Positions 26,310-43,857 of a DNA stretch of 62,168 nucleotides are shown here, one piece after another. The notes beneath the pieces are model-generated. The model worked only from the letters and a program-made list of their open reading frames with translations, made no database searches and was not told the DNA's origin. Position numbers and translations under genes: made by a program. Position 1 is the first letter of the stretch, and every line of letters begins with the position of its first letter. The stretch lies in NCBI GenBank assembly GCA_016930635.1, contig JAFGGI010000028.1, positions 1-62,168 of the forward strand, written 5' to 3'. The stretch comes from Sedimentisphaerales bacterium (GTDB taxonomy: Bacteria; Planctomycetota; Phycisphaerae; Sedimentisphaerales; UBA12454).

Positions 26310-26942
26310 ATGATTACAAAAGGCATACTTACAAAAACGATTTTTCTATTTGTTTGTGTATTTGTTTTTACCGCCTGTGTAGATGCATCACTATATAATG
26401 ATCCTGCTGCGATACCCGGTTTTACCGGCAGGACACCTTTCGACGTTTCACAGCTTGGTTCCTCTCTGCGAGTTGATGTCGAATATGCAGTCTATGCACC
26501 CGGGACATATCCAGGCCAGGATCTTACAGGAGGAAATCAGTATATTTACGCCTACCAGGTATTCAACAGCAGCATATCTAATGTTGCGGTTGATTTCTTT
26601 TCGGTAGGGCTTAGCGACAGTACAGATGCTGATTTGATTTATGTAGATGATACTTACGGCCACAGTCCAGGCTCAGGTATAGAACCTTTATTTGTGAATA
26701 TATTCTCCCAAAGCGCAGGTTTCATATTCGCAGGGGAGCCTCTTAATTCGAGAAAATGGTCTGACGTGTTGATATTCAGCTCGAGTGGTCCGCCGGTAAT
26801 GGGTATCGGAACTGTCAGCGGAGGAGGACTGTCTGATATGGGAGCTTTGCCTACGGTCGTTCCGGAGCCGGCAACGATCACAATAATTTCATCAGGACTT
26901 TTAATGCTGATAAGTCGGAAGAGGAATTTAGAAGCTAAATGA
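26310..26942 (+). CDS. PEP-CTERM exosortase-substrate protein
   Basis: A 210-residue exported protein. Residues 1-26 form a signal peptide. The mature part is a beta-rich domain of about 160 residues with no named family. The C-terminus carries the exosortase tripartite signal: VPEPATI, a hydrophobic helix (ISSGLLMLI) and the basic end SRKR. The protein would be cut by an exosortase (EpsH type, not in this window) and attached to the surface or exopolysaccharide. It overlaps the next gene by ATGA. Confidence 0.87.
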   Translation: MITKGILTKTIFLFVCVFVFTACVDASLYNDPAAIPGFTGRTPFDVSQLGSSLRVDVEYAVYAPGTYPGQDLTGGNQYIYAYQVFNSSISNVAVDFFSVGLSDSTDADLIYVDDTYGHSPGSGIEPLFVNIFSQSAGFIFAGEPLNSRKWSDVLIFSSSGPPVMGIGTVSGGGLSDMGALPTVVPEPATITIISSGLLMLISRKRNLEAK

Positions 26943-29487: not shown

Positions 29488-31197
29488 GTGTCTACTAACA
29501 TAGTACAAAATACGACTTTAGAAACAATCAGGAAGCTCGAGATTCTGGAGCCCTCTCAGCTTGCGGAGGTCGAAAAACTTGCGGGTGATTCAGGCGGGAA
29601 AAGCATCATAAGTATGCTTAAAGGTAATAACCTCGTCACTGATGAGCAGTTGGCCAGGATTATCGCAGCTATCCAGAATATAGAGTTTATAGTACTCAGC
29701 CCGGATATGGTTGACCCAATAACCGCTCATATGATTCCTTATGAATTATCCAATGAGCATAATCTCATAGGTATTAAGACAGAAGAGAACAAGTTATATG
29801 TAGCTATGAGCTCTCCGATGAATCTGGCAGCAAGAGACCAGATTGAGATGAGAACGGGCTGCAAAGTTGTGCCTTTAGCAGCAACACCCAGTGCAATCAA
29901 GACCTGCATCAGATTCCATTTTAACGTGCAGAATGTTACAAGGCAGACTATTGCCTCGATGAGACTGGAAAAACAGCAGCAAAAATCCAAGGGAGAGATT
30001 GATATATTAGACAGGCTGCAGGACAGTCAGGACCCGATAAGCAGCCTTGTGTCTTCAATAATAACCGGTGCTATCGATTCAAGAGCAAGTGATATTCATA
30101 TCGAGCCCCAGGAAAAGGATCTTGTTATCAGGTACAGGATCGATGGTGTTATGAGAAAGGAGCTCGAAATTCCCTCTACCGCTCAGGCAGAAGTGCTCAG
30201 CCATATAAAAATCCTTGCGAATATGGATATATCGGAAAAACGATTGCCTCAGGATGGACATATTACAACTGTTCGTAAGCAGGGAGAATTTGACCTTCGT
30301 GTATCTTCACTGCCGTCGGTTACAGGCGAGAAGATCGTTATCAGAATACTCGATAAGAGCGGTAATCGGTGGAACCTGGATGATATTGCTACAAATAGAG
30401 ATGATAATAAGAAATTCAGAAGCCTTGTTGAAAATCCATACGGCATGATACTAATGACCGGACCGACAGGAAGCGGTAAAACCACGACACTGTATTCGCT
30501 TTTGCAGCTTTTGAATACGGGCAGAAACAATATTGTAACTGTAGAAGACCCTGTCGAATACAGACTTGAGGGTATAACGCAGGTTCAGGTTAATACCAAA
30601 GCGGGCCTTACTTTTGCCTCGGCTCTTAGAAGTATATTAAGACAGGACCCCGACGTTATTCTTATTGGTGAAATTAGAGACCTTGAAACTGCAGAGATAG
30701 CGGTAAGTGCTGCTATGACCGGCCACCTTGTGTTGTCAACTCTGCACACAAACGACGCCGCCGGAGCGATATCACGTCTTATGAGTATCGGTGTACCACC
30801 GTTCCTTCTCGCCTCATCATTGCTGGGATCGGTTGCACAGAGACTTGTAAGGCTGTCGTGCAAGACCTGTAGAGAGACATATGTTGCCAGAAAAGAGCAG
30901 AAGGAAATTCTTACCGGCGATGCCCAAAGCGATAAGGAGATAATACTTGCGAAAAATACTGGCTGTGATAACTGCAGAAAAACAGGATGTATGGGCAGAA
31001 AGGCCATATATGAGATTTTGACCATATCCAGTCAGATACGAAGATTAATAGTAGCTGGGAAAAGCGATACTGAAATTAAAGAACAGGCAATTAAAGAAGG
31101 GATGAAGACCTTAAAGGCAAGCGGTGTCGAAGAGGTTCTTTTGCAAAATGCTTCTATGGAAGAACTGTGGCAGGTAGTTGATATGCAGGTGGATTAA
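29488..31197 (+). CDS. gspE: Type II secretion/type IV pilus assembly ATPase (GspE/PilB family)
   Basis: Hexameric cytosolic ATPase that drives pseudopilus extension. 569 residues from a GTG start with AGGA 7 nt upstream. The N-terminal MshEN/N1E-type domain (about 1-165) binds the platform protein. Then come Walker A GPTGSGKTT, the Asp box, Walker B DPDVILIGEIRD, the His box TGHLVLSTLHTND, and the zinc tetracysteine (CKTC ... CDNC) near 470-500. First gene of the operon that runs to 43857. A weak promoter candidate (TTGACG at 29439) lies upstream, with a poor -10. Confidence 0.93.
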   Translation: MSTNIVQNTTLETIRKLEILEPSQLAEVEKLAGDSGGKSIISMLKGNNLVTDEQLARIIAAIQNIEFIVLSPDMVDPITAHMIPYELSNEHNLIGIKTEENKLYVAMSSPMNLAARDQIEMRTGCKVVPLAATPSAIKTCIRFHFNVQNVTRQTIASMRLEKQQQKSKGEIDILDRLQDSQDPISSLVSSIITGAIDSRASDIHIEPQEKDLVIRYRIDGVMRKELEIPSTAQAEVLSHIKILANMDISEKRLPQDGHITTVRKQGEFDLRVSSLPSVTGEKIVIRILDKSGNRWNLDDIATNRDDNKKFRSLVENPYGMILMTGPTGSGKTTTLYSLLQLLNTGRNNIVTVEDPVEYRLEGITQVQVNTKAGLTFASALRSILRQDPDVILIGEIRDLETAEIAVSAAMTGHLVLSTLHTNDAAGAISRLMSIGVPPFLLASSLLGSVAQRLVRLSCKTCRETYVARKEQKEILTGDAQSDKEIILAKNTGCDNCRKTGCMGRKAIYEILTISSQIRRLIVAGKSDTEIKEQAIKEGMKTLKASGVEEVLLQNASMEELWQVVDMQVD

Positions 31198-32396
31198 TGG
31201 CTATTTATGAATATACAGCTCGAGATGAGACAGGAGCAGTCTTTAATGGCGTATATGAAGATATAAACAGTGTATCAGCACTGAAGAGCGAACTTGCCAA
31301 GATAGACTGTCGATTAGTCCGTGCAAAAAAAAGAGGAACAGGATTTACAACCGGAAAAGGCGGAATAAAAGAAGCCGATATTGTTGCATTTACATTTAAG
31401 TTTGCCGGTATGTGCGGGGCAGGACTTACAATTATACAATGTCTTGAAACGCTTGAAAACCAGATTGAAAAAGGAACTTTAAAAATTATCATCGGTGATA
31501 TCAAACGGAATGTGCAGAATGGTTCGTCTCTGAAGGATGCATTTGGCAAGTACCGGCAGATTTTTTCGGATTTCTTTTTAGGTATGATCGAGGCTGGTGA
31601 AGCCGGCGGAAAACTTACAGAAAGTCTTGAGATAAGCGCACAATATCTTGAGAAAAAAGCAGAGCTGTCGAACAAGATTAAAAGTGCTTTTGTATATCCG
31701 ATTATCGTGCTTGTTATGTCATTTTTAGTCATTACAGCATTAATAATATTTGTTGTGCCTACATTTACAAAGATATATAAGCAGCTCGGTGTTCCTCTGC
31801 CTTTTGCTACGCGGGTGCTGGTTTTCTTTAATCTTGCTGTGACACAGTGGTGGCCTGTACTGATAGGTGTGGCTATTGGTACGCTGCTTCTTATCAAGTA
31901 TTTGAAGAAAAGTCCTTCTTTTAAAAGATGGTGGGACTATTCCAAATACAGGCTGCCGATATTCGGCAAATTGAACAAGCTTACAGCTTCATCAGGTTTT
32001 ATCAGAAGCTTCGCCATGCTGATTTCAACCGGTGTGCCGATAATAAAAGCCTTTCATGTTGCAGGTATTGTAGTGAGCAATGAGAAAATGAGTGAGATAA
32101 GTGTTGATTTGCAGAAATCCGTACAGGCTGGAAATGGAGTAGCTGATTCGCTCAGGAAGCATGATGTTTTTCCGCCGATCATTTCTCAGTTGGCAAGTTC
32201 AGGTGAACAGGCCGGTGTCCTGGCTCTGATGCTTAATAAAGGTGTGGACTTTATGGACAAGGATATCGAACGCATGCTGAACTCGCTGCTTATCAAACTT
32301 GAACCTATACTGACTTTAGGGACGGGTGCAATTATCGGACTCATATTGCTTGCTGTATATATGCCGATGTTCGATTATATGAGCCATTTGAAGTAA
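31197..32396 (+). CDS. gspF: Type II secretion inner-membrane platform protein (GspF/PilC family)
   Basis: Polytopic platform protein that couples ATPase motion to pseudopilin extraction. 399 residues with two repeated T2SSF domains (about 65-190 and 265-390) and three membrane helices (about 168-192, 218-238, 370-395). Each domain contains the family glycine-containing motif (GEAGGKL; SGEQAG). It overlaps the gspE stop in TAATG, so translation is coupled. Confidence 0.92.
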   Translation: MAIYEYTARDETGAVFNGVYEDINSVSALKSELAKIDCRLVRAKKRGTGFTTGKGGIKEADIVAFTFKFAGMCGAGLTIIQCLETLENQIEKGTLKIIIGDIKRNVQNGSSLKDAFGKYRQIFSDFFLGMIEAGEAGGKLTESLEISAQYLEKKAELSNKIKSAFVYPIIVLVMSFLVITALIIFVVPTFTKIYKQLGVPLPFATRVLVFFNLAVTQWWPVLIGVAIGTLLLIKYLKKSPSFKRWWDYSKYRLPIFGKLNKLTASSGFIRSFAMLISTGVPIIKAFHVAGIVVSNEKMSEISVDLQKSVQAGNGVADSLRKHDVFPPIISQLASSGEQAGVLALMLNKGVDFMDKDIERMLNSLLIKLEPILTLGTGAIIGLILLAVYMPMFDYMSHLK

Positions 32397-32517: not shown

Positions 32518-32838
32518 ATGAAGTTGAGAAAAGGCTTTACATTGATCGAATTGCTGATCGTAGTGCTGATCCTTGGAGCACTTGCCGCGATAGCCATTCC
32601 GAGAATTTCGGAAAGTGCGGATACCGCTAAGGCAAATGCATGCGCCACCAACATTGACGTGATTAACGCACAAGTAGAGATATGGGCAGCAAAGAAGGGT
32701 TCTTATCCGGCGAATTTGGCTGCACTTGCTGCTGATGGAAATTATCTTCCTGACGGTGTGCCGGAATGTCCGTATGGTTCTTCGTATTCTTATTCACTGG
32801 ATGCGACTACCCATAGAGCAAGCTGTAATCACCCATAA
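32518..32838 (+). CDS. gspG: Major pseudopilin (GspG-like)
   Basis: 106-residue prepilin. The short basic leader MKLRKG is cut before the N-terminal Phe by prepilin peptidase. Mature FTLIELLIVVLILGALAAIAIP has the obligatory Glu5 and the single long helix. The small globular domain ends with a Cys pair (CPYGSS ... ASCNHP) that can form a disulfide, and is short compared with proteobacterial GspG. It has the strongest ribosome site of the operon (AAGGAG, 7 nt). A terminator-like hairpin follows, as expected for a product needed in excess. Confidence 0.9.
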   Translation: MKLRKGFTLIELLIVVLILGALAAIAIPRISESADTAKANACATNIDVINAQVEIWAAKKGSYPANLAALAADGNYLPDGVPECPYGSSYSYSLDATTHRASCNHP

Positions 32839-32899: not shown

Positions 32900-32931
32900 A
32901 AGGGTGGCCTAAAAAACCACCCTTTTGTTTT
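32900..32931 (+). terminator. Hairpin with U-tract between gspG and gspH
   Basis: The stem AAGGGTGG (32900-32907) pairs perfectly with CCACCCTT (32917-32924), with a 9-nt loop, followed by TTGTTTT. It is a strong intrinsic-terminator candidate inside the operon. It would make most transcripts stop after the major pseudopilin and let a minority read into the minor pseudopilin genes. Confidence 0.78.
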
Positions 32932-32944
32932 GTCGAGGGAAATT

Positions 32945-33400
32945 ATGACAAGTTTGAGAAAAGGAGTAACGCTCGCTGAGTTGATAGTCGTTGTACTTAT
33001 TCTTGGTGCAATGTCGTTTGTGATTGTGCCGAGAATGAGCATATCATTTATTACCACCGGCAAAACCCGAACTACAGCACACAAAATTACATCAGCTATA
33101 CGATATGCCCGCAGTCTTGCCATTGCAGATGCCGCGACGAATTCGCAGGGATATATGGTCAGTATGACAGGCGGCGGCAGTTATACAGGCTATGAAGTTG
33201 CAGTTCTTGGTTCGGGCGAAATTGTTGAAACCGGTACGATAGACCCTGAGGTCTCCTGCACCGGTGCTGATGATTTCAGATTTGGGCCGCTTGGTCAAAG
33301 AACGGGCGATACCGACAGCCTGACTGTCAGCGGAGGCGGAGAAACCTATTTAGTATCGGTTGTTACTGCTACAGGACTGGTAAAATGCGAAGAACAATAA
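32945..33400 (+). CDS. gspH: Minor pseudopilin (GspH-like)
   Basis: 151 residues from the ATG at 32945 (GAGGGA 6 nt upstream); the TTG at 32930 would lie in the terminator. The leader MTSLRKG precedes mature VTLAELIVVVLILGAMSFVIVP with Glu5 in place. The C-terminal domain is beta-rich with repeated glycines, as in GspH/FimT. It overlaps the next gene by 16 nt. Confidence 0.85.
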   Translation: MTSLRKGVTLAELIVVVLILGAMSFVIVPRMSISFITTGKTRTTAHKITSAIRYARSLAIADAATNSQGYMVSMTGGGSYTGYEVAVLGSGEIVETGTIDPEVSCTGADDFRFGPLGQRTGDTDSLTVSGGGETYLVSVVTATGLVKCEEQ

Positions 33401-33777
33401 CAAGAGGCGGCTTTACACTGTCAGAAGTTGTGATGGCATCGCTGCTGCTGACGATTGCGATCGTACCTATTCTAAAAGGTCTGACAATAACAAGTCTTAA
33501 TTCTGTTATTATAGAGAGAAGAACACGAAGCCTTTGCCTGGCTCAGGGAAAACTTAATCAGATAAAGGCGAACGCACTTTATAATTTCAGTAATGATTAC
33601 GGTGAAACAGGCACAGACATGGGCGATTCGTATTTTTGCAATGTCATCCAGACTGCTGTTAACAGCAATCTCAAGGCCCTTAGCGTTTCAGTCGGTTTCG
33701 ATGATGACGGCGACAGTTTACTTTCATCGGGAGAAACCGAGATAACACTGCAAACCCAGATAGCAAAAAGGTGGTAG
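33385..33777 (+). CDS. gspI: Minor pseudopilin (GspI-like)
   Basis: 130 residues. The leader MRRTITRGG precedes mature FTLSEVVMASLLLTIAIVPIL with Glu5. The segment RRTRSLCLAQGKLNQI after the helix is characteristic of GspI/PilV-type minor pseudopilins. It forms the initiating tip complex with J and K. The gene ends 9 nt before the stop of the antisense beta-mannosidase gene that splits the operon. Confidence 0.83.
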   Translation: MRRTITRGGFTLSEVVMASLLLTIAIVPILKGLTITSLNSVIIERRTRSLCLAQGKLNQIKANALYNFSNDYGETGTDMGDSYFCNVIQTAVNSNLKALSVSVGFDDDGDSLLSSGETEITLQTQIAKRW

Positions 33778-33786
33778 CCTGAGCAC

Positions 33787-36336
33787 TTAGCCGGCTGAAA
33801 GAATCGAATTCACAGAGTACAGGATAATCTTTTTTGGTAAATCCTCAATTTTTTCTTTCGTATGAATATTCACCGTTTTAGATTTATTCTCAAAAAGGTC
33901 GAAAAAGTTATCGCTTAACTCCGCTTCAAACGGCATATCTATAAAAAGATCTTTTATTACAGATGAAGGCATTAATTTTAATTGCCAGTTATAATCATCG
34001 AATTGCTTTGACTGAATCTCGATTTTCTGCCCTGGCCAGTTAATATATTTATCAGGCAGGTAAAAGAAACTGTTATTTGCCGTTTTGCTTTTATCTATTT
34101 CCAGGGACAGATAAAGAAAACAGCTTTCAGGCTCTTTAGGCTCAATAAATGACGACGGCAGAGGAAAAGAAGCCCTGTCATAAGGGCCGATAGAGACAGG
34201 TCTTTGAAAGTTGTCCACAGATTTGAAATTCAGATTGTTCAAACTGCAGTTGAACAGCCCTGTCAGAGGCTTTGCAGAATGATTTATTATCGAAGCGGTT
34301 AATGAAGTAATACTCTTCCTGTTCAGTATCAGGTCGCTGACGTATTTTGCAGATATTGTTATGAGAACAGGAGCAAATGCCCTTTTTATATAATAGTAAA
34401 GAGCTTTAAATCTGCCGAGACAGTCGATGCATGACCAGCTTATGGCGGGGATGCAGTCATTCAGCTGCCAGAATAAAAGACCTTTATTAATATCGCAATT
34501 CCGGCGGAGATGCTCGGCGTTTTTACGAACTGCCCTTGCCTGTGTCAGTTGCGACAGATATATAAGTTCATCAATATTTTTTGGCGGGCCGAAAAGTTCA
34601 TTTATGTAATATTGCAGACGCCCCTGGCCGTTCGGCTGATAGTTGTGTTTTTCAAGTTGCTCTGATGCAGGGTGTAAATCTTTGTCTGATGTAAAATTTT
34701 GCAGTGTTTTTTTGTCAGGCAGTGACTGAAGACCGAACTCCGCGGCAAAACGAGGGATTTGTTTCTCATCAACAAGATAATTATCCGTAGGCTCAAGTCC
34801 TGCCCACACATTCCACTGATGAACAGTTCCGGTTGATGGTTCATTTGGGTATTTGGCAGAACCGAAAGGTGTCGAAGGGATATAGTCTCTATCCGGGTCA
34901 AGCTCATGCAGCAGCTGCGGCAGTAATTTATGATAGATATCCCTGCCGTAAAACTTTCTGCCTCTGCTGATTCCGTTTGTGGCGTGCTGCCAGTCGATTT
35001 CGTTGTTGCCGCACCAGAGTACCAGTGACGGATGATTGCGCAGCCTGATTATATTTTGTGCTGCTTCGGTTCTTACCATTTGATCAAACCACGGCCGGTC
35101 AGGATAATATGCACAGGCGAATGGAAAATCCTGCCAGACCATAATGCCGAGCCGGTCGCAGATATTATAGAAAGTCTCAGTCTCATATATCCCCCCGCCC
35201 CATACACGAAGCATATTAATATTGGCGTCTTTTACCGCTGTAAGCATCCTTTCATAGTCACTATCAGCAGCTGAGCCGACAAATAAAGATAGCGGCACCC
35301 AGGATGCGCCGCGAACATAAACAGGGATGTTATTGACTATGAACTCAAAACAGCTTTCGTTTTTTTCGGCTGACTGATTTAGATGTACAATTCTTATTCC
35401 GAATTTTTTCGAAGATGATTCGATGGGTTTGTTATCGCTGAAAAGCTCGGTTTTTAATTCGTAAAGAGGTTGTGAGCCGTAGAGGTTCGGCTGCCACAGT
35501 GATACAGGTTTTATTTTTAATACTGTAGAAACATTATTCCTGCTGCCGAAGTCAAATTCTGCTTCAGCTGCGATATTGCCTGCAGGGTCGTAAACTGTCA
35601 AGTGGCATTTCGCTATAGGATTCTCACGGAAATTTTCTATTTCTACTGAAATCCTTATATCAGCGACTCCCGGGTCTGCTTCGATAGTTCTTATATGCAC
35701 ATCCCGCAGTGCTGCTGCGGAAAAACCTTCGATATAAACGCTTTTCCAGATACCGCAGCCCGGCAGAGGCGGGGCGAAGTCCCAGCCGAACTGACATTGT
35801 GCCTTTCTGACATACGACCTGAACGGCAATGAGCAATCATCCCTGCCGAGCATGCCGAAACGGTTCATCAAACGGTTACCTTCTTTAATCGCCGAGTCGC
35901 ATTTTACAAGCAGACGGTTATTTTTCTCTTTAAGCAACTCCTTTACATCAAAACGGTATGAGCAGAACATATTATCACTTCGCCCGACGAGTTTATCATT
36001 GAGCCAGACCTGGCAGAAGGTATCAAGGCCCTCAAAGACAAGCTCTGCTCTGTCAAGTTTGAAAAAATCCTGCGGCAGATCGAAAAATTTCTGAAATATC
36101 CATGGTTTTTCACCTGGCCATAAGAAATCTTCAGGATTGCAATACAATTCAGAAGGTTTAATCACCCCGGCCTGTGTAAGACAGGTATAAATTGATGATG
36201 GAACCCGGCATTCGAGCCAGTTTGATTCCTGTGGTGAGTCTGTCGAACCCACATCCAAATCTCGCATCCGTCTTGCGGATTCGGGATATTCTTTAAACTG
36301 CCAGTAGCCGGTAAGGTCTAAAATCCGTTTTTCCAT
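33787..36336 (-). CDS. Glycoside hydrolase family 2 beta-mannosidase
   Basis: Retaining exo-enzyme that removes beta-mannose from the non-reducing end of manno-oligosaccharides. 849 residues with a jelly-roll domain (about 1-205), an immunoglobulin-like domain (about 206-320), and the TIM barrel. The acid/base is E446 in WCGNNEIDW and the nucleophile E533 in RFAAEFGLQS. C-terminal beta domains follow. No signal peptide is present, so it acts in the cytosol on imported sugars. It lies on the opposite strand in the middle of the secretion operon, between gspI and the J-like gene. Base composition is not visibly different from the neighbours. Confidence 0.9.
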   Translation of the reverse strand: MEKRILDLTGYWQFKEYPESARRMRDLDVGSTDSPQESNWLECRVPSSIYTCLTQAGVIKPSELYCNPEDFLWPGEKPWIFQKFFDLPQDFFKLDRAELVFEGLDTFCQVWLNDKLVGRSDNMFCSYRFDVKELLKEKNNRLLVKCDSAIKEGNRLMNRFGMLGRDDCSLPFRSYVRKAQCQFGWDFAPPLPGCGIWKSVYIEGFSAAALRDVHIRTIEADPGVADIRISVEIENFRENPIAKCHLTVYDPAGNIAAEAEFDFGSRNNVSTVLKIKPVSLWQPNLYGSQPLYELKTELFSDNKPIESSSKKFGIRIVHLNQSAEKNESCFEFIVNNIPVYVRGASWVPLSLFVGSAADSDYERMLTAVKDANINMLRVWGGGIYETETFYNICDRLGIMVWQDFPFACAYYPDRPWFDQMVRTEAAQNIIRLRNHPSLVLWCGNNEIDWQHATNGISRGRKFYGRDIYHKLLPQLLHELDPDRDYIPSTPFGSAKYPNEPSTGTVHQWNVWAGLEPTDNYLVDEKQIPRFAAEFGLQSLPDKKTLQNFTSDKDLHPASEQLEKHNYQPNGQGRLQYYINELFGPPKNIDELIYLSQLTQARAVRKNAEHLRRNCDINKGLLFWQLNDCIPAISWSCIDCLGRFKALYYYIKRAFAPVLITISAKYVSDLILNRKSITSLTASIINHSAKPLTGLFNCSLNNLNFKSVDNFQRPVSIGPYDRASFPLPSSFIEPKEPESCFLYLSLEIDKSKTANNSFFYLPDKYINWPGQKIEIQSKQFDDYNWQLKLMPSSVIKDLFIDMPFEAELSDNFFDLFENKSKTVNIHTKEKIEDLPKKIILYSVNSILSAG

Positions 36337-36602: not shown

Positions 36603-39524
36603 ATGCGCAGTGTAAAAAACAAATGCAATTTGATTATTGCCAATTGCCGCAGAGCAATGCGTAGAGGAGTTACACTCGTTGAACTGATAGTTGCCTTTGC
36701 TTTGATCGTTATTGTCTTTGCAGCAGTTGTGCCGCAGTTCAGAACCATAAGACTCGGCTGGGCAGGCGCTGAGGCGATGAGTTCACTCATTCAAAACGGC
36801 AGGGTGCTCTCAGAGCACATCATCAGAAATCTTTCTGCAGCAAACAGGGTTGTCTCTGTCAGTCTTGCCTCGCAGACCCAGGGTTATATAACCTTCGCAG
36901 ATGCCAACGATGATAATTACCGCTATATCTACTCCAGCGGATATGTAGCATACGGTCTTGTAGGTAGTGAACAGCAACTGGCAGGGCCGGTAAGCAGATT
37001 CCAGATAACCTGCTATAGCATCTATCCAACTGTTTCAGCGACAACTGACGGCAATGATATTCGATATGTAGAAATCGAGACCGATTTTACGAACAGCGAT
37101 TCTATGGGCACAGACAGAACCTTCAAGACAGAGGTTTTTCTGCGTACAAACACAGATGACGGCTGCGGTATAGTAGGATATTGGAAACTCGATGAAACAA
37201 GCGGGACAACAGCTGCGGATTCGTCAGGCAGCGGCAACGATGGTACGCTGGTCAATATGGATCCTGGAATGGATTGGGTTACAGGACGGATCAACAATGC
37301 ACTGGATTTCGACGGCGGCAATGATTATGTAACTCTTCCTATTGATTCTGTTATAGGCTTGCTTGAGGATTGTACTATCGCCGCATGGGTAAACTGGTCA
37401 GGTTCAGGCAGCTCCTGGCAGCGTGTCTGGGATTTCGGAACAGGTACAACTTACAATATGTTCCTTACAGTCAACTGCAGCTATACAGGTTACCCTCGTT
37501 TTGCTATTACTACCAGCGGATGGAGCAATGAAGAGCAGTTAGATGCGGATGAAGAGCTGACTGCCAATACGTGGCATCATATAGCTGTAACGATAGATGC
37601 GGATGATACTACTCATAAATTATACATAGATGGCGAGCTTGTTGATGAAGATACATCAGCTTACCTGACTCCAAGCGACCTTGGAAATACCGACCGGAAT
37701 TATCTTGCTAATTCGAATTATTCTGCCGATCCGGAACTTAACGGCAGAATAGATGATGTTCGAATCTACAACCGTGTGCTCGATGCTGAGGAAATTATAG
37801 AGATAGCTAATTCGCTTAATTTCAGAAGTTTTGAAGAAGCCAAAACACCGACTGATACAACATCTGTTACGATCTCAACACCGAATGATATAAATGAAAA
37901 TGACCTGCTTATCGCAGCAGTTGCTACAGAAGGCGATACATCATCTTCATTATCGGCTCCGGGCGGCGAAGGCTGGACAGTAATTGACGTTGATAATTAC
38001 TCCAGCGGTTCTGTAACGCCGAGTGTAACACACGACTCCGGCCTGCAATGTCTTATCGGTTTAGTAGTTAATGCCGACTCCGCATCGGTGCCGGTTGCCA
38101 TCATAGGCACATGGGATACAGATTCGTCTGCACCCATAACTCATTCAAAAGAAACCGGCTCTGACCGTGCTTTGCTTTTCTTCGCACATGCTGATACCAG
38201 TCAAACTCTGAACTCCGTAACCTATGGCGGACAGTCAATGACAATAGTTATTGATCAACCTGGAAACTGGGGTTTCAGATATGCATATGTTGCAGCCTTT
38301 ATTCTTGATGATGCTGGCATTACCGCCGCAGGTACTACGACATTTAACCCAACCTGGAGTTCCTATCCCGGCAGCAATGTTACATATTCCAGTGTATTTC
38401 TTCAGGGTGTTGACCAGTCAGACCTTTATGATGATACCGCCAGCACTTCATCCTATGGTACCGACATAACAACATCAGCACTGACTGTAACGCAGGGAGA
38501 TATGGCTATCAAAGCTGCAGCCTGCCATACAGGCGGGTCATATACAATGAACAACGGCTTTACAGAAGCTTTTGAACTTTCCACAAGCGGCTATGACGGC
38601 GCCGGAGGATACAGGTCTGCAGGAAGCGCAGTTACATTAGGTACATGGTGGAAACTTGCTGACCCGTTAGAATCGACCAGTCACCAGTTTACCTGGACAG
38701 GTGCTCGACAGGCCTATGGCTGGATAATGAGATTTACCGGCCATGATACTGATGACCCGATCAACGCCTTTTCGGTCGGTAATGATTCTGATGCTGCTCC
38801 AACCAGTCCTTCGGTGACTACAGATACGGACAACTGCCTGATAGTTCGTATTGGAGGTTTTGATGGCGGTGATATTACGATAGATGACACGGGACTGCCT
38901 TCTGATTATACCGATATTACAATGGACAGAAGTGTTGCCGTGTTGTTTGAGGATGGTTTCGAAGGGACTCCATGGGATGATCAGTGGACTACTAACTGGG
39001 AAAGTGATACCAACCCGGTATATGCCGGCAGCTACTCAGCCAGTGCTGACAGGAATGATGATGACCTGACATCTGATAATATCAATACAAGCAGTTACAG
39101 TGCTTTTGTGGTTTCATTTTGGTATAGGCACTATCACATTGAATACGATGATGATTGTTATCTGCAGTTTTATGACGGAAGCGGGTACGACAATATATTC
39201 AATTTTGAGAATTCAACGGCGGGTCAATGGAATTATTACAAAGTTACGGTTACAGATGCACAATACATCCGTTCTAATTTCCGTATAAGATTTCACACCA
39301 GTATGAACAGCAGTGATGAAAATGTATGGGTGGATGATGTAGCGGTATATATCGATGGCGGTGTTTCCGGCGGAGCAGGATACACGGTACAGGAAACTGC
39401 CGGCATCAGCGGAACAGAGGATTTTGCACTTGGCCAGCAGAATGATTCAAGAATGGTTACGGTAGCGATAACGCCGGGGGCTCTGTGCGAAGTGGCCTGC
39501 TGTTCAGAGACAATAAAACCATAA
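36603..39524 (+). CDS. gspJ: Giant minor pseudopilin (GspJ-like) with LamG and MAM-like extracellular domains
   Basis: 973 residues, about five times the usual GspJ. The leader (1-22) ends RRG; mature VTLVELIVAFALIVIVFAAVVP has Glu5. The pseudopilin globular part covers about 23-185. A LamG domain follows at about 187-396 (VGYWKLDETSG, TWHHIAVTIDADD, GRIDDVRIYNRVL). Then come a beta domain starting NENDLLIAAVATEG (about 410-713) and a second related one (about 722-960) interrupted by a MAM/LamG-like insert (about 781-919, DGFEGTPW, WYRHYH, VWVDDVAVYIDG). A ribosome site (AAGGG) precedes the ATG. The large glycan- or protein-binding part would sit at the pseudopilus tip. The assignment to J rests on the N-terminal region and order; the fused part is the novelty. 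Confidence 0.82.
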   Translation: MRSVKNKCNLIIANCRRAMRRGVTLVELIVAFALIVIVFAAVVPQFRTIRLGWAGAEAMSSLIQNGRVLSEHIIRNLSAANRVVSVSLASQTQGYITFADANDDNYRYIYSSGYVAYGLVGSEQQLAGPVSRFQITCYSIYPTVSATTDGNDIRYVEIETDFTNSDSMGTDRTFKTEVFLRTNTDDGCGIVGYWKLDETSGTTAADSSGSGNDGTLVNMDPGMDWVTGRINNALDFDGGNDYVTLPIDSVIGLLEDCTIAAWVNWSGSGSSWQRVWDFGTGTTYNMFLTVNCSYTGYPRFAITTSGWSNEEQLDADEELTANTWHHIAVTIDADDTTHKLYIDGELVDEDTSAYLTPSDLGNTDRNYLANSNYSADPELNGRIDDVRIYNRVLDAEEIIEIANSLNFRSFEEAKTPTDTTSVTISTPNDINENDLLIAAVATEGDTSSSLSAPGGEGWTVIDVDNYSSGSVTPSVTHDSGLQCLIGLVVNADSASVPVAIIGTWDTDSSAPITHSKETGSDRALLFFAHADTSQTLNSVTYGGQSMTIVIDQPGNWGFRYAYVAAFILDDAGITAAGTTTFNPTWSSYPGSNVTYSSVFLQGVDQSDLYDDTASTSSYGTDITTSALTVTQGDMAIKAAACHTGGSYTMNNGFTEAFELSTSGYDGAGGYRSAGSAVTLGTWWKLADPLESTSHQFTWTGARQAYGWIMRFTGHDTDDPINAFSVGNDSDAAPTSPSVTTDTDNCLIVRIGGFDGGDITIDDTGLPSDYTDITMDRSVAVLFEDGFEGTPWDDQWTTNWESDTNPVYAGSYSASADRNDDDLTSDNINTSSYSAFVVSFWYRHYHIEYDDDCYLQFYDGSGYDNIFNFENSTAGQWNYYKVTVTDAQYIRSNFRIRFHTSMNSSDENVWVDDVAVYIDGGVSGGAGYTVQETAGISGTEDFALGQQNDSRMVTVAITPGALCEVACCSETIKP

Positions 39525-39536
39525 GGTGTAAACGTT

Positions 39537-40106
39537 ATGAGAGATAGATATAGCAAAATGAAAATACAGATAAAAGATAAATCCGAAGCACGAAATCCGA
39601 AATCCGAAACAATATCGAATATTCGAAATCAGAATGTTCAAAACAATGCGTTTAGGTCATTTTCAGGTTTTTGTCATTTGGATTTGTTTCGTAATTCGAT
39701 ATTCGGTATTCGAATTTCTAACAGGAAAGGTTCAATATTGATCGTTGTGCTTTTTGCTATATCGCTCCTAGCGGCTTTTGTAACCGGTATGCTTCAGATG
39801 AATATGGAGCAGGCTCAGCTTATGAAGAATGAAGCTTTTATGGCAGATGCGCTTGCAATTGCCGAGGCGGGCCTTGCCGATGCGTTCGCAAGGGTCAGGA
39901 CCTATGAGGCCTTGCCGACTGATTTCGGTCCTGTAAGTTTCGCCAATGGTTCATACAGCGTGACGATTACCGGGTCGCTTCCGAATCCGAGTTTTACTTC
40001 AGTGGGTACTTCCGGGCAGGGGTATATCGCCAGGGTCGAAGCTGATGTTACTGTAGATACGGTTTCCTATGTGGTTCGCATAGATGAATACAGGATAAAC
40101 GAATGA
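39537..40106 (+). CDS. gspK: Minor pseudopilin (GspK/PilX-like) with repeat-derived long leader
   Basis: 189 residues. The predicted prepilin cut is after G65 (NRKG, then SILIVVLFAISLLAAF), and position 5 of the mature protein is hydrophobic, as in GspK, rather than Glu. The segment NEAFMADALAIAEAGLADAFARV is characteristic of GspK/PilX proteins. The mature part is short (about 124 residues). The first 64 residues are an exceptionally long leader, and residues about 15-61 are encoded by a palindromic repeat. AAGGTG precedes the ATG at 39537, and no in-frame start lies nearer the cut site. It overlaps gspL by 4 nt. Confidence 0.8.
   Translation: MRDRYSKMKIQIKDKSEARNPKSETISNIRNQNVQNNAFRSFSGFCHLDLFRNSIFGIRISNRKGSILIVVLFAISLLAAFVTGMLQMNMEQAQLMKNEAFMADALAIAEAGLADAFARVRTYEALPTDFGPVSFANGSYSVTITGSLPNPSFTSVGTSGQGYIARVEADVTVDTVSYVVRIDEYRINE
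39579..39722. repeat. Imperfect palindromic AATTCGAAAT-type repeat inside the gspK-like leader
   Basis: About 140 nt rich in CCGAAAT, TCGAATATTCGAAA and, on the other arm, ATTCGATATTCGG and TTCGAATTT, forming an imperfect inverted repeat around a T-rich centre. It resembles a small dispersed repeat seen in many environmental planctomycete and candidate-phylum genomes (from memory), whose translation gives strings such as KSEARNPKSE. Here it is in frame and provides residues of the pseudopilin leader. Confidence 0.68.
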
Positions 40107-41689
40107 AATTTGATATGAAAAAACAATTTCTTACCGCGGAGATGCGTAAAAAACTTTTCGGCATAGATGTCCGTACAAAAGTTTTCGGCATTGATATATG
40201 CAATGATAAGGCCTGTTTCGTTGAACTGCGAAAGCACGGCAGGCAGATAAAAGTTGCACGGTGCGGCACTATACCTCTTGACAAGGGTGTGGTAAAAAAT
40301 GGAGTTGTCAAAGACCCTGCAGCGCTTACGAGGATACTGAAGCAATTTAAAATCGCCGGCACATTCAGAACGGCTAATGCGGCTTTAAGTGTGTGCTCCG
40401 AGCCTGTGCTTTTGCAGATACTCGATATGCAGGATGCTCCGCCCGGCGAGACAAGGAGATTTATACAGAACGAAGTCAAGCAGTACGCGATATTGCCGCT
40501 GAAAAATGTTGAGACGGATTACTGCGGATTGAAATCATCCGATGTCCATACAAGACGGGTACTCGTCGGGGCAACACAAAGTGAAAATCTAAGTACGACT
40601 GTAGCCGCTATAGAAAAAGATAATATAAATGTTGTGGCGGTTGAGCCTGCTGTAATATCTTTTATCAGAATATGTTATGATATGATAATCAGACCGCAGA
40701 GGGAACAAAATATTATATTCCTGCTTTTGCGGGATAATACCCTGAATTTATGTCTTTTTGAAAGACAGGGACTTGATTTTCTCAGGGTGAAAAAGTTTGA
40801 TACTGAAATCGTCAACTCGCAACAGAGGGGCGACTGGCTTAGCCAGGAAGTTGAGTCTGTAATTCAGTTCCATGAACTTGAAAGAGGTTCAAGTGCAGAA
40901 AGCTGGCAGATATTTGTTGCCTGTTGTCCGGAAAATAAATACAGCGTCGAGATCGTCGATGAAATAAAAAATAAGATATCACGTCATGACGTTGAAATCG
41001 CGGCGTTTGAAAACAGCCTTATGGATATAGCCATCGACCCGGAAGATAAAAGAGAGATTCCGCCTGTTGCTGCAGGAGTGGCGATGAGGCTGCTCGATGA
41101 GGACAAAACATCGATAAAGCTGAATATGCTGCCCAAAGATATAGTCTCGACCAAGAAAGCTAAAAAACAACTGCTGGTCATTATAAATACCGCTGCGGTG
41201 ATATTCCTTATAATGCTTATGCACATAATGTTTCTGGTAAATACATCCAGAACAATAACCCTTGAATTGCAGCAGAGAAATCAGTTCCGCCAGAATATTG
41301 ACCTGGACGCATTAGCTGAACAACAGGTTCTTCTAAACCAGGGTCTTCAGAAGACTATTGCAAGCGTTAATACTATTAAGTCCGTATTTAAAGATAAGAT
41401 CTGGTATGACTGGGCTTCTATTATGACCGAGCTGGGCAGATATACACCAAGAGCCGTACAGATTCAGAGATTGCGGACAGAAGGTTTGGCCAAAATGAAT
41501 ATTCAGGGGTTAGCTGTCGGCCATGATGCGATAAACGATTTTGTGGACCAGTTGGCTTTATGCGAGGCAGTAGAGTCTGTCAAGCTTCTGGATACGAGAC
41601 AGAATACGAAATACGGTTACGGTTTAATTAATTATTCTATAAGTTGTTCTCTTGCTACCGGCAAAGATGAAGAGAAAGAAAAGGATTAA
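40103..41689 (+). CDS. gspL: GspL-like protein (PilM-type actin fold fused to PilN-type segment)
   Basis: Inner-membrane assembly protein that links the ATPase to the periplasmic ring. 528 residues. The cytosolic actin-like PilM/GspL domain spans about 20-340, starting FGIDICNDKACFVELRK. One membrane helix lies at about 358-378. A periplasmic coiled coil and ferredoxin-like PilN domain (about 380-525) ends in SISCSLATG. The fusion of PilM and PilN parts is the GspL arrangement. It overlaps both neighbours slightly. Confidence 0.85.
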   Translation: MKFDMKKQFLTAEMRKKLFGIDVRTKVFGIDICNDKACFVELRKHGRQIKVARCGTIPLDKGVVKNGVVKDPAALTRILKQFKIAGTFRTANAALSVCSEPVLLQILDMQDAPPGETRRFIQNEVKQYAILPLKNVETDYCGLKSSDVHTRRVLVGATQSENLSTTVAAIEKDNINVVAVEPAVISFIRICYDMIIRPQREQNIIFLLLRDNTLNLCLFERQGLDFLRVKKFDTEIVNSQQRGDWLSQEVESVIQFHELERGSSAESWQIFVACCPENKYSVEIVDEIKNKISRHDVEIAAFENSLMDIAIDPEDKREIPPVAAGVAMRLLDEDKTSIKLNMLPKDIVSTKKAKKQLLVIINTAAVIFLIMLMHIMFLVNTSRTITLELQQRNQFRQNIDLDALAEQQVLLNQGLQKTIASVNTIKSVFKDKIWYDWASIMTELGRYTPRAVQIQRLRTEGLAKMNIQGLAVGHDAINDFVDQLALCEAVESVKLLDTRQNTKYGYGLINYSISCSLATGKDEEKEKD

Positions 41690-41696
41690 TGAATCT

Positions 41697-42290
41697 ATGG
41701 AATATACGGGCCAGTCACAAAAAAATACATTGATCGCGGTCATTTTGATTATAGGCCTGATCGGGATGTATAACTGGTTTGTCAGACCTCAGGCCCGGTA
41801 TATTGCCGTTGCCAAGGAGTATCAGCAAACGGTGGATGATATGAAAAAAACCAGTATAGCAATGAGCAAAAAGCAGAAGATCAGCAGGGAAAGCCTGAGA
41901 GATTTCCTGCAGCAGTTAAATGACCAGAAGCAGGGGCTGTTTACTGAAAAACAGGCGAAAGAATTTCTTGCAAATCTTCAATCAATAGCAGAACAGACCG
42001 GCTGTATGGTTCTGGAGGTCAGGCATAAGCCTGTAAAACCGGTTTTTCTGGAGGACAGTAACTCTATAGATATTGACAGGCACGAGGCCAGTATGCGTCT
42101 TATGGGAGGATATGAAAATATAGTGGGATTTTTAAATTTACTCCAGGGCAGACCAACAAGGGTCTGGATCGATAAGATAAGTCTGGATATGAGAAGTCCT
42201 ACAAGCACATATCTTACCTGTGATGCTGTCTTGAGCATATATACCTTAGATATTAAGGAGATCCAAAGCGATGTTGACTCAAAAAAATAA
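41697..42290 (+). CDS. gspM: GspM/PilO-like inner-membrane protein
   Basis: 197 residues from the ATG at 41697 (AAGGA 12 nt upstream); starts at 41667 or 41652 would give a lysine-rich N-terminus overlapping gspL and are possible. One membrane helix (about 12-30, LIAVILIIGLIGMYNWFV) is followed by a coiled coil (about 40-90) and a ferredoxin-like domain containing MRLMGGYENIVGFLNLLQ, the usual PilO signature. It pairs with GspL. It overlaps the secretin gene by 20 nt. Confidence 0.83.
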   Translation: MEYTGQSQKNTLIAVILIIGLIGMYNWFVRPQARYIAVAKEYQQTVDDMKKTSIAMSKKQKISRESLRDFLQQLNDQKQGLFTEKQAKEFLANLQSIAEQTGCMVLEVRHKPVKPVFLEDSNSIDIDRHEASMRLMGGYENIVGFLNLLQGRPTRVWIDKISLDMRSPTSTYLTCDAVLSIYTLDIKEIQSDVDSKK

Positions 42291-43857
42291 AAGGATAGTG
42301 GTTTTAACGGTATTTATATTCATATGCTTTGCTTTTACGGTTTATTCCGAAGCTGCTGATGAAGTATCAGGTGCCGATATTGCCGCGGGTAATATCGATA
42401 TTGCTGCGTTAGCGCAGGATAATCCCTTTGCCCGATTTACTCAGCCGGCAACAGGAGCGTCCCCGGCACAGCAGATATCATCATCACAGCCTAAGCCGGA
42501 TCTGTTTGTTAAAACCGTAACACTGAGATTTCTCGATGCCACGAGTCTGGCTGAATCCATTGAGAATATGCTGACCGAATGGGGCAAGATGGAGCCGGAT
42601 GCAGGAAGCAACTCTTTAATCATTTGTGATACAGATGAAAACCTTGAGAAAATCCTGAAACAAATTGCCGAGGCGGATAAAAGACCAGGCCAGATCATGA
42701 TCGAAGTGGTCCTTGTTGATGTCAAACTCAATGACGACACTGAGATAGGCATAAACTGGGATATGCTTCTGTTCGAAACTGATGATTCACTTATTGGTAG
42801 TGACAGAACCACTTTCAGGCAAAATGTTGGTTTTACAAGTCGTTTGGCTTCTACTCCCGATGACAGTACAACCAATGGTATTGCAAAATATTTAACTACC
42901 GGTACCGGAGCGGATTTCAGCATTTTTTGGGGCGATATAAGAAATGTTATCCATATGCTGCAGGAAAAGAATAATGTTGAAATACTTGCAAGTCCGCGGG
43001 TAATGGTTGTCAGCGGCAAGACCGCATCGATAGAAGCGGTTGAGGAAATTCCTTATAGTGAAGTGACTGATACGGATGGCGGAGGTACACTTGAGTCAAC
43101 AGCATTTAAAGATGTTGGTGTTAAACTGGATGTTACTGCGACACTAACAGATGACAGCTCGATATTAATGACCATCGCATCTGAGCAGAAAGTAGAAACA
43201 GGTACATCAAGTACTGAAGTTCCTATTGTAGATGCCCGTACGATAGAGACATCACTTTTCCTCGAGGATGGGCAATTACTGGTTATTGGCGGCCTGCGAC
43301 GCAAACAAACGCAAAAACAAACGGAGCAGCTTCCTATACTCGGAGATCTGCCGGTTGTAGGCAATGCCTTTAAATCCACACTGACGACTCAGTATAGTTC
43401 TGAGCTGGTCGTGATTCTCTCGCCTCATATATATAAGGGTGAAATACTTACCGCAAGACAGATGAAGAAATTTAATGACATTACGAAACAGCCTCTTTTG
43501 ACAATTCCGGAAGTCGAGGAATTGGAGCAAAAGAAAAAAGAACAGGAAGAAAAGGACAGAGAAAAAGAAACTAAAGAGAAAGCTAAACTAAGCAAGAAAG
43601 AAGAAAAAGAAAGAAGAAAGGCAGAAAAGAAAAGAGCAGAAATGCTTAAGAAAGAAGCCAAAGAAAGGGAAAGAATAAGTAAACAAGAAGCAAAAGAGAA
43701 GAAAAGGATAGCTGAAAGAGAAGCCAAAGAAAGAGAAAAGATGCGAAAAGAGGCCGAAGCAGAGAGAAGAGAAAGGATAAGCAGGGCACAGGAAATGGAA
43801 AAAGGGCAAACAGAATCAGAAGGAATTTTCGATGTTTTGTTTTCCAAAAGTGAATAA
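42271..43857 (+). CDS. gspD: Secretin (GspD/PilQ family) with long charged C-terminal coiled coil
   Basis: Outer-membrane gate of the secretion system. 528 residues with a signal peptide (1-28), a short N-domain region (about 75-140, including TLRFLDATSLAESI) and the secretin core (about 145-405). The core has VEILASPRVMVVSGKTASI and DGQLLVIGGLRRK, followed by LPILGDLPVVGNAF. Only one ring-forming N-domain is evident, fewer than in proteobacterial GspD. Residues 414-528 are an almost uninterrupted Lys/Glu/Arg coiled coil with repeated EAKE(R/K) units. The ribosome site AAGGAG is 9 nt from the ATG. Confidence 0.9.
   Translation: MLTQKNKRIVVLTVFIFICFAFTVYSEAADEVSGADIAAGNIDIAALAQDNPFARFTQPATGASPAQQISSSQPKPDLFVKTVTLRFLDATSLAESIENMLTEWGKMEPDAGSNSLIICDTDENLEKILKQIAEADKRPGQIMIEVVLVDVKLNDDTEIGINWDMLLFETDDSLIGSDRTTFRQNVGFTSRLASTPDDSTTNGIAKYLTTGTGADFSIFWGDIRNVIHMLQEKNNVEILASPRVMVVSGKTASIEAVEEIPYSEVTDTDGGGTLESTAFKDVGVKLDVTATLTDDSSILMTIASEQKVETGTSSTEVPIVDARTIETSLFLEDGQLLVIGGLRRKQTQKQTEQLPILGDLPVVGNAFKSTLTTQYSSELVVILSPHIYKGEILTARQMKKFNDITKQPLLTIPEVEELEQKKKEQEEKDREKETKEKAKLSKKEEKERRKAEKKRAEMLKKEAKERERISKQEAKEKKRIAEREAKEREKMRKEAEAERRERISRAQEMEKGQTESEGIFDVLFSKSE

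Follow-up and report, generated by a model that had tools for sequence, protein, structure and literature searches.

A GspJ-type minor pseudopilin with exchangeable outer modules in a filament operon of Sedimentisphaerales

The Filament Operon

The window analyzed here is a stretch of 62,168 nucleotides from a Sedimentisphaerales bacterium, and it carries on its forward strand an operon for a filament system. The operon opens with E, an assembly ATPase (GspE/PilB; 29488–31197) that contains T2SSE and MshEN domains and scores 545 bits against PilB and 537 bits against GspE, followed by F, a platform protein (GspF/PilC; 31197–32396) with a T2SSF domain, and G, the major pseudopilin (32518–32838), in which both N_methyl and T2SSG lie above their cut-offs. 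The minor pseudopilins H (32930–33400; weak GspH match) and I (33385–33777; gspI at E 0.015) are assigned with the help of their conserved positions. The J gene (36603–39524) precedes K, a short minor pseudopilin (39537–40106) whose match to T2SS_GspK (E 0.0009) covers its N-terminal part only. The operon is completed by L, a PilM-PilN fusion (40103–41689; PF11104 and PF05137 above cut-offs), M, a PilO/GspM-like protein (41652–42290) placed by its position and a weak T2SSM_b match, and D, a secretin (42271–43857; PF00263, E 5e-41) that is slightly nearer PilQ (185.7 bits) than GspD (170.5 bits). The gene order E-F-G-H-I-J-K-L-M-D is common to the window and the relatives mapped. In the window a GH2 gene (33787–36336, reverse strand; beta-mannosidase-like by eye) stands reversed between I and J, and a homologue occupies the same place and relative orientation in genomes G007 (locus L040, 1218–3740) and G002 (L041, 5628–8108). 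At 26310–26942 (forward strand) lies a gene for a small secreted protein whose end is PEP-CTERM-like (VPEPATITIISSGLLMLISRKRN).

The original prediction placed this pseudopilin in a type II secretion operon. Parts of T2SS type are indeed present, as GspE, GspF, GspG, and the secretin match their Pfam families above cut-off, with the equivalog cut-offs for GspE, GspF, GspG, and GspD missed. GspF and T2SSG are T2SS-like features, whereas PilM and PilN, both above cut-off, are slightly closer to T4P, as is the secretin. A search for GspC (PF11356) found none in genomes G000–G012 with a positive E. coli control, although a diverged GspC might escape such a search. Genes of the PilT family score above cut-off elsewhere in the genome (contigs C54 and C1) and are absent from the operon. 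Judged by its gene content, the machine is here called, in a broad sense, a T2SS/T4P-type mosaic filament system rather than a plain type II secretion system.

The J Gene and Its Domains

The J gene encodes a modular GspJ-type pseudopilin of 973 residues in one open reading frame (36603–39524, forward strand) that starts with ATG and contains no internal stops. Its N-terminus is that of a class III prepilin, as predicted, with the motif MRRG|VTLVE and Glu5; the N_methyl profile (PF07963) gives 20.9 bits (cut-off 21.2) in one search and 26.4 bits, above cut-off, in another. The leader comprises residues 1–22 (36603–36668) with cleavage after Gly22 when counted from the listed ATG, and a start at Met19 would give a leader of four residues. 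The pilin module follows (residues 23–185; 36669–37157) and is joined in frame to a LamG domain (residues 187–405; 37161–37817), which is matched by LamG_3 (PF13385) at residues 237–398 with 99.8 bits against a cut-off of 27.6 (E 2e-28) and by PDB entry 4qvs at residues 195–403 (E 3e-24).

The remainder of the protein is built on a domain, here called X, that is recognized by a profile built from relatives. Domain X is unbroken in genome G018 and lies in three pieces in the window protein (residues 407–468, 37821–38006; residues 671–778, 38613–38936; residues 917–958, 39351–39476). A separate homology block, domain Y (residues 493–673; 38079–38621), sits between the first two pieces, and a MAM-like part (residues 780–916; 38940–39350) sits between the last two. 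No Pfam family name was obtained for X or Y in the Pfam search, and the MAM match (PF00629, residues 821–915; E 0.0013) scores 19.1 bits, below the cut-off of 26.4. Thus the predicted 790 or so residues of lectin-like domains hold for LamG and not throughout, and the predicted MAM-like domain stands as a segment conserved in G005 and G008 despite its weak Pfam score. Domain Y is missing at the first insertion place in G022, G034, and G056, the MAM-like part is the sole insert of X in G005 and G008, and Y occupies the MAM place in G078. Since the presence and place of Y and the MAM-like part differ among relatives, domain X appears to take up inserts. The protein ends in Ile-Lys-Pro (residues 971–973; 39513–39521), an ending that recurs among its relatives as described below.

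Several results bear on whether the long gene is real. Relatives align in frame over residues 17–468 and 673–967 with 48–55% identity, orthologues lie at the same operon position, and an operon with a long J recurs in other genomes; together with the intact reading frame, these findings rule out a frameshift or assembly fusion of two genes. An internal start that would give the distal part a signal peptide was also rejected for the window gene, as no hydrophobic segment fit for one was seen (best 15-residue hydrophobic mean 1.65, compared to 3.4 for the prepilin helix); a separate distal half does occur in two relatives (G006 and G009). Among the 35 prepilin-motif matches in the genome, J alone has an open frame of more than 400 residues.

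The Pilin Module

The identification of J as a GspJ relative rests on fold and gene position, because the sequence evidence for it is weak: no match to the GspJ sequence model TIGR01711 was listed at E 1, and Foldseek alone gives the pilin module E values of 0.04–0.05. The AlphaFold model of residues 1–186 has a pLDDT of 90, with 41 sequences in the input. When this predicted structure is compared by VIA-align, the top group (residues 54–186) consists of the Thermus pilin 5g24 (Z 12.8) and the GspJ structures XcpW (12.6), EpsJ (11.6), and ETEC GspJ (10.8). Streptococcus sanguinis PilB comes next at Z 7.2, and other folds remain below 5. The J gene also stands between I and K in the window and in relatives, so that the predicted GspJ identity of residues 23–185 is borne out by fold and gene order alike. 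The full-length model (mean pLDDT 50) is informative solely for the pilin module and parts of LamG, and is too poor for domain boundaries or docking of the tail to be visible.

Distribution in Sedimentisphaerales

The J pilin-module profile matches 75 of the 161 genomes of the order Sedimentisphaerales at E 1e-20 or better, and 81 at E 1e-8. Across 392 genomes of the phylum, strong matches occur only within the same order, the remainder being weak and N-terminal. Named records with J matches belong to Sedimentisphaerales, Anaerohalosphaeraceae, Phycisphaerae, and other Planctomycetota MAGs. Almost every clear J protein is long, with an extension beyond the pilin module of 159–990 residues (median 364; 69 J proteins), and a few short J genes are found in genera g15 and g70. 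A single chromosome (CP070830.1) carries four separate J loci (L104, L105, L108, and L129), one of which encodes a J with an altered C-terminus (L129, 10004–11713). The order also contains a second, paralogous E-F-G-H-I-J-K operon (L137, 6081–7529; L138, 6030–7469; L139, 2757–4265), whose J bears an extension of about 300 residues (VINEIMYNP..., lamin-tail-like by eye) and lacks the aliphatic-x-Pro ending.

Exchange of the Outer Module

Long J proteins recur across the order, with LamG as only one of many modules. LamG is present in 23 of the 69 J proteins, and other extensions match CBM96, CBM9, CBM3, DUF7305, and Ig-like domains, among further Pfam families. Searches with profiles of seed modules sorted the extensions into 11 kinds, whose labels, for instance PROP and THUA, serve as working names and make no claim about the fold. 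On the tree of pilin modules, many branches of which are weakly supported, the module kind changes 24 times, compared to a possible minimum of 10. Close relatives likewise differ: the sister genes of G007 and G002 (SH-aLRT 98) carry different modules, as do two tandem J genes of G147 that form a sister pair (SH-aLRT 96). In genome G147, three consecutive J genes each carry a different module, and G145, G128, G100, and G050 have two J genes each. Tandem J genes were observed at L061 (3625–7396), L065 (4999–9168), L071 (8789–11568), L072 (6232–9516), and L043 (2233–10463); at L061 there are three copies with three modules, all ending in -x-P. From these comparisons, it is concluded that the outer module has been swapped repeatedly at one orthologous J position while the carrier and operon remained constant.

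Domains of the same kinds are also found outside J, as LamG and Y are present in other large proteins of these genomes. Domain Y was seen in numerous further large proteins from the order (loci L051, 13467–15137, and G037:C2:53434–59910), among them a 3600-residue open frame and a protein beside a second pseudopilin cluster of the window's own genome. The outer module could therefore be a structural or passive addition, with planctomycetes shuffling domains widely, J tolerating C-terminal additions, and module identity meaning little. The wide occurrence of the same modules, the differences between even sister genes, and the short J proteins of two clades and some further genes fit this explanation. 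It is nonetheless very unlikely, as clear J proteins are nearly all long, no other prepilin-motif reading frame of the window's genome exceeds 400 residues, many of the modules come from binding families, and the C-terminal tail is retained through module changes.

The C-Terminal Tail

The C-terminus [IVLFM]-x-P ends 51 of 67 complete J proteins, across nine module kinds. Position -3 is Ile or Val in 42 J proteins, position -2 is often Leu or Arg, and the residues preceding the tail contain 24% Gly, compared to 10% in the rest of the extension. The 52 Pro-ending J proteins use all four proline codons (CCA 18, CCG 17, CCT 10, CCC 7) and all three stops, indicating selection at the protein level. 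The same pattern ends 21 of 835 neighboring genes, or 18 of 832 once three fragments derived from J are set aside. Of 17 proteins other than J that carry these modules, one fits (Fisher 1e-7 versus J). These comparisons are to be read with the knowledge that the tail was noticed after the fact, that the J sequences are related, and that the tail state itself needs just 8 changes on the pilin-module tree. Among tail-bearing J proteins, the tail is kept through 20 module changes. It is missing from two clades and a few others, 16 of the 67 in all (five of DUF7305 type, four of genus g15, L084–L086, two that are split, and two more) and is therefore not essential everywhere.

Other explanations of the tail were also considered. 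An origin from the ribosome-binding site of K was rejected because the proline codon and the stop differ between genes, and because tandem J genes lying upstream carry the tail too. A genome-wide secretion signal was rejected because E-[IV]-x-P-stop is not enriched in the window's genome (23 matches versus 31 for the reversed pattern); this test is partial, since the window tail T-I-K-P falls outside that pattern. The K protein ends LRINE in most operons and LRINP or RVNP in a few lineages (e.g., L088, 8517–8927; L073, 6758–7312), showing that K itself occasionally ends in aliphatic-x-Pro. Replacement of the motif by K (RINE/RINP end) where J has no tail does not hold cleanly, as neither is found in L049, L050, L080, and L082, and the two occur together in L092 and L096.

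Many carboxypeptidases act poorly on a C-terminal proline, and the tail could accordingly protect an exposed C-terminus from proteases, or else form the folding end of the last strand. Protection or folding is a rather unlikely explanation, as other proteins with the same modules mostly lack the tail, and in J it stands on a Gly-rich linker after unrelated domains. Alternatively, the -[IVL]-x-P ending may serve this filament system as a dedicated recognition signal, a C-terminal counterpart to the N-terminal secretion signal of type IVb pili, used in cis on exchangeable J modules and in trans on separately exported proteins. This proposal is tentative and held at less than even confidence. If the tail is such a signal, the filament tip could carry or tow any domain that bears it.

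A Natural Split of J

The use of the tail in trans is suggested by two relatives, G006 and G009, in which J ends after LamG without a tail. The next gene in each encodes a protein with a signal peptide of Sec type (judged by eye), followed by a new middle part and domain X, and the two products end DDVTP and DEIKP. These companions (L036, 7089–8639, and L038, 6161–7684, both on the reverse strand) directly follow the shortened J. As read from the gene pair, the tail is relocated together with the distal half, and the occurrence of a separate distal protein suggests that the parts likely cooperate.

Proposed Role

The reading that is somewhat favored is that J is a modular minor pilin displaying an exchangeable binding module at the filament tip. 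The GspJ-type N-terminal module, with H, I, and K, would start and cap the filament, and the large C-terminal module would ride to the outer filament end and bind a ligand there. We infer the tip location from the H-I-J-K tip complex, which is capped by K (PMC9934059); the predicted position of J at the pseudopilus tip thus holds insofar as J belongs to the tip complex as one of its subunits, whereas the cap itself is K. By the precedent of S. sanguinis PilC (PMC9934059), the surface probe or adhesin originally proposed would be the likeliest function, with the module exposed at the cell surface. The ligand of the LamG version would most likely be a polysaccharide. Here we infer glycan binding from the LamG and CBM families together with the polysaccharide-degrading lifestyle of the order (PMC11131199), and LamG-fold domains may bind protein instead of sugar. 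Because the carrier and operon stay while the outer module changes, lineages would re-aim one machine by swapping the outer module or inserting domains into it. The tail, often on a Gly-rich linker, would serve as a linear motif for docking or towing, by which the module is attached to the tip complex or to the machine, acting in cis in fused J and in trans on the signal-peptide companions of G006 and G009.

A T2SS-type pseudopilus may also stay in the periplasm throughout, and extended J could then be a periplasmic cargo receptor whose module picks matching substrates that the pseudopilus pushes through the secretin. In favor of this role, GspF and T2SSG agree with a T2SS, secreted enzymes that degrade polysaccharides abound in the order (PMC11131199), and other large proteins of these genomes carry LamG and Y as well. 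It is nevertheless considered unlikely, as the search of the family's genomes gave no GspC, L is a PilM-PilN fusion and the secretin is nearer PilQ, and repeated swapping would suit outside targets better than a fixed set of cargo. Display at the tip remains the preferred reading, and the J system offers a route to how polysaccharide-degrading planctomycetes contact their substrates.

Comparison with Known Systems

The fusion of a prepilin to an additional module is of a known type, that of the modular pilins, among which prepilin plus PF13385 is one of the 15 commonest architectures (PMC8179133; Raynaud et al. 2021). J shows two sequence features of this class, namely a class III prepilin motif with Glu5 and an extra domain, LamG, that is not specific to pilus biology. 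A literature search of partial coverage found no account of this planctomycete system or its tail. What is new here is the repeated exchange of modules at one orthologous J, the tandem J genes with different modules, and the shared tail.

J resembles GspJ, XcpW, and EpsJ in the fold of its pilin module and in its place in the G-H-I-J-K order. In contrast, solved GspJ chains have about 150–200 residues and no such extension, and planctomycete J is unmatched by GspJ sequence models.

A second parallel is offered by type IVb pili, in which a terminal linear motif fastens the secreted proteins TcpF and CofJ to the minor pilin at the tip, and they are towed out (PMC9565799). The CofB-CofJ and TcpB-TcpF pairs share with G006 and G009 a Sec-exported protein that is encoded with pilus genes and carries a short terminal motif. 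In CofJ and TcpF, the secreted protein bears its motif at the N-terminus, centered on an aromatic residue, whereas the planctomycete tail, here known from sequence alone, is C-terminal, consists of aliphatic-x-Pro, and in most cases belongs to a protein fused with the pilin. A docking or towing role of the tail would, if true, account for the mounting of unlike domains on one filament.

J is also close to S. sanguinis PilC, a modular pilin described in 2023 whose ConA-like lectin module is glycan-binding (PMC9934059), and to PilB, which carries a vWA module. These proteins have the same arrangement of a class III prepilin N-terminus, a pilin module, and a bulky C-terminal binding module. Planctomycete J differs in having a GspJ-fold carrier within a diderm operon that includes a secretin, in the exchange of modules at one orthologous position, and in its conserved C-terminal -[IVL]-x-P tail. 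J thereby provides a natural series of module swaps on one orthologous minor pilin, together with a short motif that is directly testable.
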